From Deltaproteobacteria bacterium RIFOXYD12_FULL_56_24 (lineage in GTDB: Bacteria; Desulfobacterota; Desulfobulbia; Desulfobulbales; Desulfurivibrionaceae): a stretch of DNA of 42,589 nucleotides. The stretch lies in NCBI GenBank assembly GCA_001799285.1, contig MGTD01000020.1:1-42589 (forward strand). The letters are read 5' to 3'. Shown one piece after another: positions 1,431 to 42,405 of this stretch; the stretch's first letter is position 1; each line of letters starts with the position of its first letter. Position numbers and translations under genes: made by a program. The notes under the pieces were generated by a model. That model did no database searches, was not told the DNA's origin, and was given only the letters and a program-made list of their open reading frames with translations.

Positions 1431-2127
1431 AATAACAACCTCATCGGTGGGGAAGGCAGGATACGGAAGGTCCGTCCGGTGTTTTTGCGAGAAACCCACG
1501 GAGGATCAAGTAATTCCCCGGTTTTTGCTTGTGGTCAATATTTATATTAATTGTAATCAGTTGGTTAACTCGTACGGGTGGGCCAAACTAAATCTTCCGT
1601 GAAGGGGAAGCCCCCTGGAGATGGCAAATGGATGTCTGATCGCCGGACCACATAAAAAGATCAAAAAGTTCGGACAGGATGGAAGGTGGTCAAATAATCC
1701 ACAGGGATAACTCTCGCGGTGGAAATGGGAAATCTCTGTTTTCCCCTTGACTTTACTTATCATGGATTTCCCCGATTAGGCTCTTGGCTTGGCTTGGCGT
1801 GGCATGAAATGCTGATAGCATAGTGTGAAAATATTTTAAATATTTAAATCTTAAGTGCGTTATATACTGTCTAGTTTGCCTTTTCTCGCTTGACTCCTTT
1901 TGCTTATTTTAAGGAATGAGCGAGTATAACATGACCCTACGGGGAAGCCATTCTTTAACTTGTTGAATTAACGGAATTAAACCTTTTTTTATTGTGGAGT
2001 CTCAGGTTAAGTCCGAAAAGCTCCTGGTGTTATGTATATTGACAGAAAACAGGTTACTGGTACGATGTGGTATGAGTGTAACCGCCAAAATTTTTATTGT
2101 ATGTGGGAGTTATTTCTGGGGATGATA
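1431..2127. other. Intergenic region without a recognised gene
   Basis: About 700 bases between two divergently transcribed genes. It is much more AT-rich than the flanking genes, especially 1825-1870 and 1960-2000. No tRNA, riboswitch of a known class or convincing ORF was found. A 68-codon minus-strand frame (1557-1763) has no recognisable motif and atypical composition. The region presumably holds both promoters; only the minus-strand candidate at 1541-1568 could be pointed to. Confidence 0.6.
1541..1568 (-). promoter_or_regulatory. Possible sigma70 promoter of the diguanylate cyclase gene
   Basis: On the minus strand a -35-like TTAACC (1563-1568) lies 16 bases before a -10-like TATAAA (1541-1546), in an AT-rich stretch about 105 bases upstream of the TTG start. 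Matches are 4/6 and 5/6. This is a weak prediction. Confidence 0.3.
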
Positions 2128-4932
2128 ATGCGGCTTGTAATAGGGATCGGTATCGTTTTGATTTCGATCTCATTGTGTTTTCCTGCCTTATCCACGGAAC
2201 AGCGCAGACTTGCGCTGGTTATCGGTAACGATGATTACCAGAAAGTAAGCAAGTTGAAGAAAGCCGTCAATGATGCGGATGCCATGGCCGGTGAGCTGAA
2301 AGCAGCCGGCTTCGCAGTTGTCCAGTACCATAATCTCGATTACCAGGATATGGTAAAGGCGGTGGAGTCTTTTGCAAACCGCGTCAATGGCGGGGATCAG
2401 GTCGTGGTGTTTTTCGCTGGTCATGGGGTGCAAATCAAGACCGGTGGATATCTGTTGCCTGTTGATATAGAAGCTGGCAGCGAAAGGCAAGTTGAGAAAA
2501 CTTCTTATGGACTGGCTGATCTTACAGACAGGCTGAGCGAAGCTAAACCTTCCTTTACGCTGGTCGTGGTTGATGCCTGCCGGGATAACCCGCTTAAATC
2601 CCGGGGGCGTAGTATTGGCAATACCCGTGGTTTGAGTGCCATAGAGCCGCCAAAGGGTCAAATGGTGGTGTACTCGGCCAGCAAAGGCCAGCAGGCTTTG
2701 GATCGCTTGAGCGAAGAGGACGAAAGCCCCAACAGCGTGTTTACCAGGGCATTCATCGCTAGGATGAAAAAACCTGGGGTTAGAATCGAAGAGATGATGA
2801 GGGAAGTACAGGATGCTGTGGAAAAGCTTGCCCAGTCAGTGGACCACGAACAACGCCCTGCAATTTATAATGAATCGCGCGGCAATTTTTATTTTTTTGG
2901 TCCGACCACGGTCAATGTGCAGACATTTCCCCCTCCCTTATCACATGTCGGTAAATCACAGTCTAATGCCTTGGTCGTTCATGATGATACTGAAACCTAT
3001 TTCTGGAACGATGTGAAGGCTGGTGGAAGCAGAGAATATTTTGATGCCTACCTGAAGAAATATCCAAATGGAAAATATGTCGATTTGGCCAGGATCGAAT
3101 TGAAGAAAATGGCCGACCGGGAAAAAACTGGAAAAGGCAGGGAAAACGACAGTAACAAACAAACAGCCAAACAGTTAGAAGCGAGAATCGCCAGGATCGA
3201 GTTGGAGAGCTGGGAGCAGGCGAAGTCCGGGAACAGCATCAGCGCTTACGATGATTATCTGAGCCGCTATCCTGAGGGCCAGTTTGCGGCTCTGGCCCAG
3301 GCGGCCCGAAAGAAACTCGTGCAGGAGGCCGCAGAGCGGGAGCGTCAGGCGCGCGAAGAGGCGGCGAGCCAGGAGATGCAGGCGCGCAAGAAGCGCGAAG
3401 CTGAGGCGAGAGTTGCCCGGATCGAACAGGAGAGCTGGGAGCAGGCGCAGTCGGTTAACAGCATCAGTGCTTACGATGATTATTTGAGCCGCTATCCAGT
3501 GGGGCGGTTTGTGGCGTTGGCTCAGGGAGTCCGAAAGAAACTCGTGCAGGAGGCCGCAGAGCTGGAGCGTCAGGCGCGCGAAGAGGCGGCGAGCCAGGAG
3601 ATGCAGGCGCGCAAGAAGCGCGAAGCCGAGGCGAGAGTTGCCCGGATTGAACAGGAGAGCTGGGGGCAGGCGCAGTCGGTTAACAGTATCAGCGCTTACG
3701 ATGATTATCTGAGCCGTTACCCGGAGGGGCGGTTTGGGGCGCTGGCTCAGGCGGCCCGGCAGAAACTCGTGCAGGAGTCTGCAGAGCGGGAGCGTCAGGC
3801 GCGCGAAGAGGCGGTTCGGCAGGAGGAGCAGGCGCGCAAGAGGCGCGAGGCCGAGGCGCGGGCGGCTAGGATTGAACAGGAGAGCTGGGAACAGGCGAAG
3901 TCCGGGAACAGCATCAGCGCTTACGATGATTATCTGAGCCGCTACCCGGATGGGCAGTTTGTGGCGTTGGCCCAGGGAGCCCGGCAGAAACTCGTGCAGG
4001 AGGCCGCAGAGCTGGAGCGACAGGTGCGCGAAGAGGCGGTTCGGCAGGAGGAGCAGGTGCGCAAGAGGCGCGAGGCCGAGGCGCGGGCGGCCCGGATCGA
4101 ACAGGAGAGCTGGGAGCAGACGAAGTCGGTTAACAGCATCAGCGTCTACGATGATTACTTGATCCGCTACCCGGATGGGCGGTTTGCGGCGCTGGCCCAG
4201 GAGGCCCGGCAGAAACTCGTGCAGGAAGCAGAGGCGCTGGCGGCAAAGATCGAGCAGGAGAGCTGGGAACTGGCCAAGTCCGAGAACAATCTCTCTGTTT
4301 ATGAGAACTTTTTGAGTAGGTATCCAAAAGGGCGGTTTTCTGTTAAGGCTCAGGGAAATTATCAGATTTTACTGAAACAAAAGCGTGAAGAAGAAGCACG
4401 GATGATGGCCGTCCAAGTCGAGCAGGAGACCTGGGAACTAGCTAAATCCGAGAACAGTGTCAGCGCTTATGATAATTATTTGAACAAGTATCCTGATGGC
4501 AGGTTTGCAGATCTTTGCCGCGTCGCCAGTCAGAAAATTTTAAGGGATGATTTGGTTTATGCCGCCAAGAACCTTTTTGCGGTGACAGCGGATGGGGTGA
4601 TAAGCGATGCTCAGAGCGGTCTTGAATGGGTCGCTGGCCCGGATGAGAATACCGATTACTCTCAGGCCGAAAAGTGGGTGGTCACCTGTGGCGTTGCTGG
4701 AGGTGGTTGGCGGATGCCCACCATGCTTGAATTGAAGGAACTGTACGCAAAAGGTGTCGATACGCACAATTTTCAGCAGATATTCAAGACCTCCGGCGCT
4801 TTTGTCTGGGGTGAGCCAAAGGATTGGTTGTCTGCCTGGAATTTCAACTTTCGCATCGGCAAGGAGCAATGGGATACCCGCTACGACTCTGCTAACAACA
4901 GGGTTTTTGGGGTGCGCGCACGACAAAGATAG
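2128..4932 (+). CDS. Secreted caspase-like (peptidase C14) protein with tandem repeats and C-terminal DUF1566/Lcl domain
   Basis: A 934-residue protein. I chose ATG 2128 because GGGG lies six bases upstream and the product then begins with a signal peptide (MRLVIGIGIVLISISLCFPA); the frame is open back to 2032. The p20 caspase fold is clear: ALVIGNDDY near 29, catalytic His99 in FFAGHG and Cys151 in VVVDACRDNP. After residue 290 come about eight units with the core YDDYLSRYP.G.F, five of them at an exact 225-bp step and separated by Arg/Glu-rich coiled-coil linkers (REEA..QE.QARKKREAEAR). The last 120 residues resemble DUF1566/Lcl (GLEWVAGPDE, WRMPTMLEL, FGVRARQR). Family members cleave after basic residues or act as signalling scaffolds; the substrate is unknown. 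It stands alone, with no obvious partner gene. Confidence 0.88.
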   Translation: MRLVIGIGIVLISISLCFPALSTEQRRLALVIGNDDYQKVSKLKKAVNDADAMAGELKAAGFAVVQYHNLDYQDMVKAVESFANRVNGGDQVVVFFAGHGVQIKTGGYLLPVDIEAGSERQVEKTSYGLADLTDRLSEAKPSFTLVVVDACRDNPLKSRGRSIGNTRGLSAIEPPKGQMVVYSASKGQQALDRLSEEDESPNSVFTRAFIARMKKPGVRIEEMMREVQDAVEKLAQSVDHEQRPAIYNESRGNFYFFGPTTVNVQTFPPPLSHVGKSQSNALVVHDDTETYFWNDVKAGGSREYFDAYLKKYPNGKYVDLARIELKKMADREKTGKGRENDSNKQTAKQLEARIARIELESWEQAKSGNSISAYDDYLSRYPEGQFAALAQAARKKLVQEAAERERQAREEAASQEMQARKKREAEARVARIEQESWEQAQSVNSISAYDDYLSRYPVGRFVALAQGVRKKLVQEAAELERQAREEAASQEMQARKKREAEARVARIEQESWGQAQSVNSISAYDDYLSRYPEGRFGALAQAARQKLVQESAERERQAREEAVRQEEQARKRREAEARAARIEQESWEQAKSGNSISAYDDYLSRYPDGQFVALAQGARQKLVQEAAELERQVREEAVRQEEQVRKRREAEARAARIEQESWEQTKSVNSISVYDDYLIRYPDGRFAALAQEARQKLVQEAEALAAKIEQESWELAKSENNLSVYENFLSRYPKGRFSVKAQGNYQILLKQKREEEARMMAVQVEQETWELAKSENSVSAYDNYLNKYPDGRFADLCRVASQKILRDDLVYAAKNLFAVTADGVISDAQSGLEWVAGPDENTDYSQAEKWVVTCGVAGGGWRMPTMLELKELYAKGVDTHNFQQIFKTSGAFVWGEPKDWLSAWNFNFRIGKEQWDTRYDSANNRVFGVRARQR
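3205..4257 (+). repeat. 225-bp in-frame tandem repeat inside the caspase-like gene
   Basis: The GAGAGCTGG motif recurs at 3205, 3430, 3655, 3880 and 4105, exactly 225 bp apart. More diverged, shorter units follow at 4258 and 4426. The first units are nearly identical at DNA level, which implies recent duplication or homogenisation. Each encodes one helical YDDYLSRYP unit plus a charged linker. Confidence 0.92.
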
Positions 4933-5412: not shown

Positions 5413-5544
5413 ATAACGGTCCAGCAGTGCCGCAGATGCGCGTGTCAATTGTCGGCAGAAGTGCCGACAAAGAGGTCTGCAAAGTGTGCTATTGCACATG
5501 AGCAGGCCGATGACAAAGCAGATGCGGTGCTGCTGGACCGTTAT
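5413..5544. repeat. Fold-back element copy A (132 bp)
   Basis: The ends are a perfect 15-bp inverted repeat: ATAACGGTCCAGCAG (5413-5427) and CTGCTGGACCGTTAT (5530-5544). Inside are hairpin 1, TTGTCGGCA/TGCCGACAA (5449-5470, loop GAAG), and hairpin 2, GGTCTGC/GCAGGCC (5474-5508) with TGTGC/GCACA at its tip. A 42-base core (5422-5463) is identical to 16154-16195 of copy B. It begins 2 bases after the amrB stop codon, so it may form the 3' end of that transcript. Confidence 0.9.
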
Positions 5545-8659: not shown

Positions 8660-8698
8660 GAAAAGGGGCGCCAAGGCAGGGCGGTCGCCCATGTTTTA

Positions 8699-8752
8699 CA
8701 CCCGAAGGGCATAAGTTTCGTAGGAGCAGACAAGTTGCTCAACTCAGCTTTA
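8699..8752. repeat. 54-bp dispersed repeat, copy F1
   Basis: Matches 42352-42405 at 46 of 54 positions with no gaps, from CACCC to CTCAACTCAGCTTTA. Its centre is a hairpin, GAGCA/TGCTC around GACAAGT. It lies just after the 156-aa gene and directly before the serA promoter candidate. Confidence 0.85.
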
Positions 8753-15154: not shown

Positions 15155-16102
15155 ATGAGTCAGAATAGCCTTTTTATCGTCGAGAGAGGAGGGCAGCGTC
15201 TTGATCTGTATCTGGCAAGCCAACTCGACCGTGAAGGCTTGACGCGGTCACGGATTCAGCAGCTTATCCGGGGCGGCATGGTCCTGGTCAATGGGACTGT
15301 CCAGAAAGCCAAGTATCTTCTTCAGGCCGGGGACCGCCTTACGGTGACTATCCCTCCGAGTCCTTCTTCGGAGCTGGTTGGTGAGCCTGTCGATTTTATT
15401 ACTTTGCATGAGGACGAGGATCTCATTGTTCTCGCCAAACCCCCAGGGATTGTGGTGCATCCAGCATCAGGTCACCGTTCGGCAACCCTGGTCCATGGCC
15501 TTCTTCATCATTGTGGCGGGTTATCCGGGATAAATGGGGAGTTGCGCCCCGGTATCGTTCATCGCCTTGATAAGGACACTTCCGGCGTCATGGTGGTTGC
15601 CAAAAGCGATTTTGCCCATCAGGCGCTGGCCGGCCAGTTCAAGCAGCGCCAGGTGAAAAAGATCTATCAGGCCCTGGTCGAAGGCAAGCCGACCATCCAA
15701 TCCGGCCGGGTTGCTCTGCCCATCGGCCGGCATCCCGTGCAGCGGAAAAAAATGGCGATTCGGGAGGATGGCCGGGAGGCCGTGACCAACTGGCGGGTTC
15801 TGGAGAGATTTGCCCAGGGGTTGACCCTCTTGGAGCTTAGTCTGGAAACCGGGCGCACCCACCAAATCAGGGTACATATGGCTGCCCTGTCTCACCCGGT
15901 TGCCGGTGATTCCGTATATGGCCGGAAGAATTCCCGTTATGCCGAGATGGGGATCAGCCGGCAATGCCTGCATGCCCATACCCTGGCCTTTATTCATCCC
16001 CGGACCGGGGAGGATCTGCAGTTTATCGCGCCGCTTTGGCCGGATATGCTATATACTCTTGAGTTGTTGCGACAGACAGGCGGCGCTTCGCTTATGGGGT
16101 AA
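15155..16102 (+). CDS. rluD: RluD-type 23S rRNA pseudouridine synthase
   Basis: A 315-residue RluA-family enzyme. An S4 RNA-binding domain (about 14-75, RLDLYLASQL, SRIQQLIRGGMVLVNG) precedes the catalytic domain with GIVHRLDKDTSGVMVVAK, Asp139 being the nucleophile, and ETGRTHQIRVHMA near the end. RluD modifies helix 69 of 23S rRNA; the S4 domain and length favour RluD over RluA, but RluC-type specificity cannot be excluded. The TAA stop lies within a half-copy of the fold-back repeat (16099-16120). Confidence 0.9.
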   Translation: MSQNSLFIVERGGQRLDLYLASQLDREGLTRSRIQQLIRGGMVLVNGTVQKAKYLLQAGDRLTVTIPPSPSSELVGEPVDFITLHEDEDLIVLAKPPGIVVHPASGHRSATLVHGLLHHCGGLSGINGELRPGIVHRLDKDTSGVMVVAKSDFAHQALAGQFKQRQVKKIYQALVEGKPTIQSGRVALPIGRHPVQRKKMAIREDGREAVTNWRVLERFAQGLTLLELSLETGRTHQIRVHMAALSHPVAGDSVYGRKNSRYAEMGISRQCLHAHTLAFIHPRTGEDLQFIAPLWPDMLYTLELLRQTGGASLMG

Positions 16103-16144
16103 GCGTTCACCAGGGGCACCCAAATTTCAGGTAAACACGGAACT
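16099..16144. repeat. Half-module of the fold-back repeat, left of copy B
   Basis: GTAAGCGTTCACCAG starts at 16099, followed by GGGGCACC, CAAATTTCA and finally ACT before copy B. The same order GTAAnCGTTCACCAG ... CAAATTTCA ... ACT is found on the reverse strand at 21856-21900 next to copy C. It overlaps the rluD stop codon. Confidence 0.75.
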
Positions 16145-16279
16145 GTAAGCGTTCAGCAGTGCCGCAGATGCGCGTGTCAATTGTCGGCAGAAGTGTCCGA
16201 CCAAGAGGCCTGTTCGCTATACATAAGGTATGCGGACCAGGCCGATGACAAAGCAGATGTGGTGCTGCTGAACGCTTAC
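16145..16279. repeat. Fold-back element copy B (135 bp)
   Basis: Perfect 15-bp terminal inverted repeat GTAAGCGTTCAGCAG (16145-16159) / CTGCTGAACGCTTAC (16265-16279). The core is identical to copy A over 42 bases. Hairpin 2 keeps GGCCTG/CAGGCC but has a completely different tip (CGC-T-ATAC/GTATGCG) that still pairs. It ends 20 bases before the coaE start, so it would lie in the coaE leader or the rluD-coaE transcript. Confidence 0.9.
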
Positions 16280-16299
16280 CTTGTGGGGGGAGGGTAACA

Positions 16300-16920
16300 G
16301 TGGCAGAGCAGGCACAGACATCGGTGGTTGCCATCACCGGGGGGATGGGCTCCGGCAAGAGTTCCGTGGCTGCCTGTCTCTGCGAGATCAGCGGAGCCAG
16401 AGGGCTTAATGCCGATACCGTTTGCCGGCAGCTTCTTGAGCCTGGGGCTACTGGTTGGTTGGCCGTGCAGGGGGCCTTTGGCGAGAGATTTTTTTTGGCG
16501 GATAAGCGGCTTGACCGGACCTTGTTGCGTAAGGTTCTTTTTGCAGACCACGAATTTCGCCGGGAACTCAATGCCCTGCTTCACCCCTTGGTGCGAGAGG
16601 AAATCGCCGCCTGGCTAGGCAAAGAGAAAGGAAATTTTTCCCTGGCCCCAGTGCGGTTTGTGGTGGAGGTGCCCCTTTTGTATGAGGCGCACTGGGAGCC
16701 TGATTTTTCGCAGATTGTAGTGGTATATTCAGATAAGCAAGCCTGCCTGCGCAGAATCATGCTTCGTGACCGGATAGGCGAGGCTGAGGCCCAAAAAGCT
16801 TTTGCGACCCAGATGCCCTTGCTGGACAAGGCCCTTCGCGCGGCTCATGTTATTGATAACAGCGGGCCTTGGCCTGATACCGCCTTGCAGATCGTGCATC
16901 TCCGAAATTTGCTTTGGTGA
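16300..16920 (+). CDS. coaE: Dephospho-CoA kinase
   Basis: Last step of coenzyme A synthesis, phosphorylation of the ribose 3'-hydroxyl. The 206-residue P-loop kinase shows GGMGSGKSS (14-22), LNADTVCRQLLEPG with the conserved aspartate, HPLVREEI, and VVEVPLLYEAHWEPDFSQIVVVYSD. The start is GTG 16300 behind GGGGGGAGGG. coaBC lies elsewhere in the window (29238-30455); coaD was not seen. The gene converges with folE2, 9 bases between stops. Confidence 0.93.
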   Translation: MAEQAQTSVVAITGGMGSGKSSVAACLCEISGARGLNADTVCRQLLEPGATGWLAVQGAFGERFFLADKRLDRTLLRKVLFADHEFRRELNALLHPLVREEIAAWLGKEKGNFSLAPVRFVVEVPLLYEAHWEPDFSQIVVVYSDKQACLRRIMLRDRIGEAEAQKAFATQMPLLDKALRAAHVIDNSGPWPDTALQIVHLRNLLW

Positions 16921-21693: not shown

Positions 21694-21855
21694 GTAAACG
21701 TTCACCGGGCACCTCATCTGCGTTATCGGCACTGCTGCCGATGATTGACAGTCAGCGGCCTGCTCATGTGCGACTTGCACACTTCGCAGGCCGCTTTGTC
21801 GGACACTCCTGCCGACGACTGACACGCGCATCTGGGGCACCCGGTAAACGTTTAC
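21694..21855. repeat. Fold-back element copy C (162 bp)
   Basis: Ends GTAAACGTTCACCGGG (21694-21709) and CCCGGTAAACGTTTAC (21840-21855) pair with one mismatch. In reverse orientation it aligns with copies A and B: GATGCGCGTGTCA, a TGTCGGCA-type hairpin and the GCGGCCTGC/GCAGGCCGC hairpin with TGTGC/GCACA tip. It carries an extra hairpin, ATCGGCA/TGCCGAT (near 21733-21750), absent from A and B. Confidence 0.88.
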
Positions 21856-21900
21856 AGTCCGGTGAAATTTGCACGTTCAACGATACTGGTGAACGATTAC
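21856..21900. repeat. Half-module of the fold-back repeat, right of copy C
   Basis: Read on the minus strand it runs GTAATCGTTCACCAG ... CAAATTTCA ... ACT and then copy C, the same order and side as the half-module beside copy B. It ends one base before the rhomboid ATG. Confidence 0.75.
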
Positions 21901-31037: not shown

Positions 31038-31207
31038 GTTATAACGTAAGCGATCACAGGGCACCACATCTTGCGGCGATCGGTCCGGCTCACGGACAAA
31101 AGTACGCATCGCCGTCCCGCTTGCCGCAACCTGTGGCACCCTGTGGTCGCTTATTCCGTGGTTATTTGACCTTTGTGGGCTCATCCCGTGATTGGTTACG
31201 TTATAAC
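31038..31207. repeat. Fold-back element D (170 bp), relative of A-C
   Basis: The outermost 12 bases, GTTATAACGTAA (31038-31049) and TTACGTTATAAC (31196-31207), are a perfect inverted repeat. Inside, 31046-31077 and 31123-31154 pair at 26 of 32 positions, and smaller GGCGAT/ATCGCC and GTCCG/CGGAC hairpins lie in the centre. Its start GTAAGCGATCACAGGGCACC resembles the end of copy C. It sits 40 bases upstream of the lipoprotein start and overlaps the stop of the nitroreductase remnant. Confidence 0.8.
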
Positions 31208-42321: not shown

Positions 42322-42351
42322 GATGTATTCTCGTTTGCAGGTTTGATATTG

Positions 42352-42405
42352 CACCCAGAGGGTATACGTTTCGTTTGAGCAGGCAAGCTGCTCAACTCAG
42401 CTTTA
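42352..42405. repeat. 54-bp dispersed repeat, copy F2
   Basis: Second copy of the 8699-8752 repeat (46/54 identical). Its hairpin is longer, TTGAGCAG/CTGCTCAA around GCAAG. The last three bases are the stop codon of the TauE/SafE gene on the minus strand. Confidence 0.85.

Follow-up and report, generated by a model that had tools for sequence, protein, structure and literature searches.

Copy B, one of at least four elements of this kind (A, B, C and D, the last absent from the initial annotation) in the window, i.e., the whole stretch of 42,589 nucleotides analysed here, is, as judged from its sequence, a bacterial MITE, a non-autonomous transposon-like element of a known kind, unusual in that its long fold evolves by paired changes and with a strand bias. 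The hairpin tip that had originally drawn attention caps the second hairpin in a near-palindrome of 135 nt (16145-16279), and this near-palindrome makes up the right part of an element of 181 bp (16099-16279). We consider it probable that copy B is a MITE with IS66-type ends whose plus-strand fold was selected during spread, and whose IS66-like mobiliser was external or has been lost. The parts of copy B and the other elements in the window are as follows.

16091-16098, no strand: left target duplication (CTTATGGG), matching the right duplication at 7 of 8 positions
16099-16279, plus strand: copy B, whole element of 181 bp with GTAAGCG...CGCTTAC ends; GTAA/TTAC with an 8-bp flanking duplication; junction element-free in 16 of 16 relatives
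16099-16144, plus strand: left end of copy B, 46 bp; in aligned flanks, similar sequence precedes the palindrome in many other copies
16145-16166, plus strand: 5' arm of the outer stem, 22 nt, including one side of the tandem T.G/G.T
16167-16168, plus strand: internal-loop GA opposite GA (possible tandem G.A); AGAT/AGAT in 135 of 164 elements
16183-16201, plus strand: first hairpin, from copy alignment and fold
16207-16243, plus strand: second hairpin, from direct reading, folding and alignment; its tip, 16213-16237, is the feature first noted
16256-16257, plus strand: internal-loop GA opposite 16167-16168, from the AGAT/AGAT counts
16258-16279, plus strand: 3' arm of the outer stem, pairing with the 5' arm at 16145-16166
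16280-16287, no strand: right target duplication (CTTGTGGG), matching the left duplication at 7 of 8 positions
5413-5544, plus strand: copy A hairpin, a diverged copy, with a possible left end from 5369 and a possible duplication GTTCATGA/GCTCAGGA (6 of 8), both by eye
21694-21900, minus strand: copy C, 207 bp, with a third hairpin; duplication CATGTTCC/TATGTTCC; site element-free in 13 of 13 relatives
31046-31199, minus strand: copy D, the fourth copy, with a related core (AGGT facing AGAT), a rod-shaped apex and the duplication GTTATAAC (8 of 8)

Copy B is situated between a pseudouridine synthase gene and coaE. Aligned flanks place the outer left end about 45 bp ahead of the palindrome, and the elements delimited in this way start with GTAA, finish with TTAC and are flanked by 8-bp duplications. 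The duplications were perfect in 43 of 163 cases and matched at 7 or more of the 8 positions in 70; with flanks dealt anew the average was 0.6 and the highest value 3, the ends having been picked as the best within a small range and the control keeping the same end choices. The coaE gene is found in all 16 other genomes of the genus, and the element occupies the junction of copy B in none of them (0/16), the length of this junction varying among the relatives; the site of copy C is uninterrupted in all 13 relatives that have the neighbouring gene. We count copy B as mobile DNA because of the GTAA/TTAC ends, the 8-bp duplications and the element-free sites in relatives. The elements also show the general traits of MITEs, being short, bounded by terminal inverted repeats, flanked by duplications and present in many copies. 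When the B palindrome was used as the query, its own genome yielded at least 49 matching pieces, in at least 40 places after merging of neighbours, which is a lower bound as 40 of 182 candidates were scored. Some copies are 97-99% identical to B, and such near-identical copies suggest recent movement. Matches were obtained in 26 of the 38 genomes searched (own genome included), among them all 17 of the genus, and the core pattern was present in 47 stretches of named metagenome-assembled genomes titled Deltaproteobacteria, Desulfobulbaceae, uncultured delta proteobacterium or Proteobacteria. Going by these titles, we take the hosts to be members of the order Desulfobulbales. The plasmid and phage collections searched gave no match to the elements.

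Several other features of the locus and the window were observed along the way. The upstream pseudouridine synthase gene takes its stop from the left end of copy B (TAA at 16100-16102, inside the element's GTAA), and in 16 other genomes of the genus this gene ends without the element (region 16091-16102 of the window). Positions 3172-4561 hold tandem copies, mostly 225 bp apart, within an open frame of 966 aa (2032-4932). A separate dispersed repeat of 57 bp is present at 8696-8752 and 42349-42405, and also at loci L145 and L223; by eye, a MITE is inserted in a copy of this repeat at L145, and a copy of the repeat lies within a MITE hairpin tip at L223.

Extracts of PMC11946415 describe IS66 elements as having ends that start with GTAAGCG and 8-bp duplications, and a GTAACCG-type end is given for an IS66 element in a portion of PMC12888890. 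The elements described here share both traits expected of an IS66-derived MITE, namely GTAAGCG-like ends and an 8-bp target duplication. Within the same order, 8 of the 44 IS66 loci examined had GTAAGCG, GTAACCG or GTAACTG ends together with 8/8 duplications, and one IS66 element of the order reads GTAACTGTTCAG, matching one MITE subfamily. As for internal sequence in common with a parent IS, the core pair was sought in the 44 IS66 loci and was absent save for one loose match, located in the L237 transposase region and without paired arms. The IS66 DDE transposase (PF03050) was detected in 0 of the 17 genomes of the genus, drafts that may miss it, and in 73 of the 193 genomes of the order; the accessory IS66 protein TnpB (PF05717) was also detected in 0 of these 17 genomes. 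Multi-copy elements can drop out of draft assemblies. Loss of the transposase, its absence from the drafts only, or the use of another transposase are all possible. A search of part of the genomes for an autonomous partner (GTAA/TTAC ends, duplication of at least 7, 60-6000 bp) gave 52 end pairs. Besides elements of 108-245 bp, these comprised three IS66 elements from other genera and a 1043-bp pair with poor ends, which was taken for chance. As to the means of mobility, we infer an IS66-like transposase, from elsewhere or since lost.

Direct reading of the second hairpin of copy B gives GGCCTG at 16207-16212, TTCGCTATAC at 16213-16222, an ATAAG loop, GTATGCG at 16228-16234 and GACCAGGCC up to 16243. 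The tip pairs as CGC/GCG, a bulged T and ATAC/GTAT, so that the pairing on top of GGCCTG/CAGGCC, claimed in the initial annotation, is borne out; the tip is present, but at 16213-16237, a few bases off the 16216-16247 assigned to it at that stage. Copies A and C have TGTGC/GCACA in this place, the lower stem of A being GGTCTG with one T.G pair. Folded as DNA, the B palindrome reached z = -8.95, and none of 200 shuffles was equally good. The idea that the tip had been rewritten specially in copy B did not hold, as four more copies from its own genome (L002-L005) carry the same tip and the B class makes up 67 of the 151 parsed hairpins, a share inflated by the use of B as the query with which relatives were gathered. 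Nor is the B tip unrelated to that of A and C, since alignment shows paired changes linking TATAC/GTATG and TGTGC/GCACA. With the top five pairs aligned, B differs from A/C by two changes of a G-C to an A-U pair (columns 81-94 and 83-92) and one of U-A to a U-G wobble (80-95); below them, A-U is replaced by G-C at 78-96 and C-G by U-A at 75-99. Copy L081 (GTGTGC/GCATAT) has the G.T form of one pair that differs between the A/C and B tips. We had entertained the B tip as a separate helix unrelated to A/C, and dropped this once the alignment showed the matched pair differences. Thus, the B tip is a variant helix, and its difference from A/C is common to many copies and not private to B. Most other copies having unpaired tips would have spoken against a kept fold, and this was not the case: the minimum-energy fold of the second hairpin, taken as a whole, contained under 10 pairs in 3 of the 151, and of these L168 was misparsed on account of an insert.

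The view that the fold, and not the sequence, is kept gains support from paired change throughout the family, though not from copy B alone, on which it was first based. For 22 copies from the own genome, i.e., the full-length two-hairpin ones among 30 loci fetched, RNAalifold predicted 52 pairs, 15 of which changed on both sides. In these copies 51 cells were changed on both sides versus 13.1 after shuffling (0 of 500 shuffles as high), and 97.6% of cells were paired, compared with 93.8% in shuffled alignments and 24-43% in slid controls; further pair types were not raised (29 vs. 29.5 expected; 381/500 shuffles). In a larger sample, in which relatives of B and intact cores are over-represented, pairing of the outer stem in 169 elements amounted to 93.0%, and to 81.2% after arms were swapped among copies. 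Five of these 169 parsed palindromes, all with low pairing, were left out by eye as misparses, a choice that tilts the remaining 164 elements slightly towards pairing; seven others with poor pairing were retained. The second hairpin was parsed in 151 of the 169, leaving 18 without one, and the tests of tips used distinct hairpins of a single length: 42 36-mers with a loose B pattern, including six with the intermediate CTATAGCC form, and 34 A-type 35-mers. Counted on trees, paired changes numbered 54 in the outer stem of the 164 elements (6.7 expected), 10 in the B-type hairpin (1.3 expected) and 4 in the A-type hairpin (0.8 expected). Single changes that break a pair of the outer stem were depleted on internal branches (27 vs. 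51.3 expected, null minimum 37), and no depletion was observed on terminal branches (89 vs. 96.4 expected). A phylogeny-aware, R-scape-style covariation test of each pair, the check proposed in the initial annotation, gave a signal in 2 of 48 pairs only; corrected over all column pairs, this test of little power was significant for 1 of 20 outer pairs, for none of the 15 pairs in the B-type hairpin and for 1 of 13 in the A-type hairpin. Because the per-pair test is much weaker, the case for the fold leans on the whole-structure measures.

Sorting of the 151 hairpins by regular expressions gave 67 B, 58 A, 12 rod, 6 intermediate and 8 other tips; in the own genome (n = 49) there were 30 A, 12 rod, 5 B and 2 other. 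When tip class was mapped for 50 elements onto a tree built from their remaining sequence, 12 changes were counted versus 16.7 after shuffling, a value equally low in 2 of 200 shuffles. Well-supported branches of this poorly resolved tree force at least three changes of tip class for A and for B. It seems that tips move between backbones, which would be a third route besides selection and repair. Members of a second family (GTAACCGTTCACCGGGG..., 154-156 bp for those with both ends located) closely resemble the first in outer stem and core and differ from it in their rod-like apex, and among the matches listed there are others with a third hairpin or with other small repeats within the tip. By comparison of these copies, the shared module is the outer stem with the T.G/G.T and AGAT features.

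Individual copies show further rearrangements. A small hairpin repeat (AGCCCCTA...) sits at the same spot of the B-type tip in L009, L024, L162 and L168; these four copies may form a subfamily, or else insertions may favour this tip. In L088, L189, L028, L168 and copy C of the window, the module of the first hairpin (TGTCAATCGTCGGCAG...GCCGACA) is present again, either as a third hairpin or nested within itself, as if copied as a unit. In L087, L121, L125, L110, L048 and L184 the left outer arm is GCGCCGCTTCGCTGCTG instead of the usual arm, and the outer stem is largely broken.

More tentatively, the element, which has no transposase gene of its own, may spread as a folded single strand: selection for the structure of one strand, either a transcript or single-stranded DNA, with its fixed non-standard core and cassette-like apices, would then determine which copies multiply, and this within a genus in which IS66 transposase was not detected.

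Any G.T mismatch in one strand of a duplex palindrome appears as A.C in the complementary strand, and equal numbers of the two are therefore expected under strand-symmetric mutation. We counted 233 G.T and 39 A.C cells in the outer stem, the two nearly always T.G pairs excluded, 30 and 7 in the B-type hairpin, and 38 and 10 in the A-type hairpin, all of these being numbers of sequences and not of events. Counted as events on internal branches, three trees gave G.T:A.C ratios of about 40:7, 37:7 and 39:5. For terminal branches the ratios were 36:28 (outer-arm tree), 124:31 (apex tree) and 72:33 (whole-element tree); free decay of resident copies, as read from these tree-dependent values, was not relied on. 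Mismatches other than G.T or A.C were common (144 outer cells, 46 B-type cells). The plus strand folds better than the opposite one in 162 of 164 elements with RNA parameters and in 163 of 164 with DNA parameters. The tandem T.G/G.T is nearly fixed (157/164 at each of its two pairs), and AGAT stands opposite AGAT in 135 of the 164.

These observations bear on foldback repair, to which replacement of the B tip had also been ascribed. Arm-to-arm template switching or foldback repair could make paired changes in a fold that has no function, and parts of PMC8794818 present it as a known mechanism that can create and maintain hairpins. Arm copying may indeed contribute in places: L123, an example-like case, has one perfectly symmetrised arm, and of 247 element pairs with close apices 131 differ by at least one paired change and 2 by runs of six adjacent paired changes. 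However, copying of one arm from the other would erase the T.G/G.T and AGAT/AGAT features, which persist, and does not predict the excess of G.T over A.C. We thus disfavour it as the main cause and regard it as an unlikely account of the whole pattern; the data favour selection for a fold of one strand, as RNA or single-stranded DNA, over foldback repair alone.

It is more doubtful still that the core is kept as duplex DNA for a bound protein, its pairing being incidental. GCAGATG and GTGC, present on the same strand in both arms, are among the most conserved columns, but helices 1 and 5, i.e., the outer pairs and second hairpin, where the paired changes occur, lie outside these motifs, and the wobble bias is also seen in the outer 12 pairs alone (129:35), though it is stronger in the core (104:4). 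Least probable, and in our opinion very unlikely, is an ordinary MITE whose stem symmetry reflects two copies of a transposase end, with no separate structural selection: the outer stem does include the right terminal repeat along with an inverted copy, and the palindrome, which may itself carry two working ends, is flanked on its own by 7/8 duplications in 3 of 132 cases (L137, L167 and L191; control mean 0.07, maximum 2 of 1000 deals), but pairing runs inward beyond the ends into apices that differ by family, the outer left end is unlike the inner arm, and the wobble bias is strand-specific.

If the plus-strand fold of an IS66-type MITE was selected during spread, copies whose plus strand still folds would leave more descendants. 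Selection, as we infer for both the folding molecule and its role, would act on the single-stranded plus strand, most likely in a transcript and less likely in single-stranded DNA arising as the element is replicated or transposed. The B tip would have arisen by paired substitutions, at least partly via G.U intermediates, and tips would also have been exchanged between copies.

The orientation of the elements showed no significant bias, either to upstream genes (49 sense, 39 antisense, p 0.34) or to downstream genes (33 sense, 49 antisense, p 0.10), which speaks against a role in host mRNAs. Rfam 15 gave no match over the whole window at gathering scores, and none at 16050-16340 with E up to 1. 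By both length and ends, the elements are unlike those of REP/RAYT systems, which are palindromes of 20-40 bp bearing an unpaired tag, for example GTAG. A description of the family was not found in the open-access literature searched.

Among known systems, IS66 insertion sequences and the MITEs they might move are alike in their GTAAGCG or GTAACCG ends and 8-bp duplications, as far as portions of PMC11946415 and PMC12888890 describe them. In contrast to IS66 itself, the elements have no transposase gene, their host genus has no IS66 transposase found, and they contain a long near-palindrome, none being seen in the terminal 150 bases of eight folded IS66 elements. Correia/NEMIS, ERIC, YPAL and other bacterial MITEs are, according to sections of PMC2229807 and PMC10969869, about 100-200 bp long with transcripts predicted as long stem-loops. 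They have other names and ends, and are set apart here by their descriptions rather than by sequence comparison; for the present elements paired change and strand-biased wobbles were measured, and the apices vary between copies. REP elements (GTAG- and CGTC-tagged) are characterised in part of PMC3733652 as dispersed hairpin palindromes of 20-40 bp with an unpaired tag at one end. The dispersal of hairpins is alike, whereas the elements studied here are about 110-245 bp long, with GTAA/TTAC ends and 8-bp duplications. The CIR repeats of Caulobacter, as outlined in a passage of PMC2229807, are intergenic and have two hairpin arms joined by a linker. In our elements two arms sit on one closing stem, the comparison being one of descriptions and not of sequences.

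Bacterial MITEs are commonly said to fold because their ends are inverted repeats. Here, the paired changes, the fixed wobbles and the strand bias together suggest a fold that is selected in one strand, and folding as such seems to count during the spread of the element. The many diverged copies provide a natural test of selection versus template switching as the source of paired changes.
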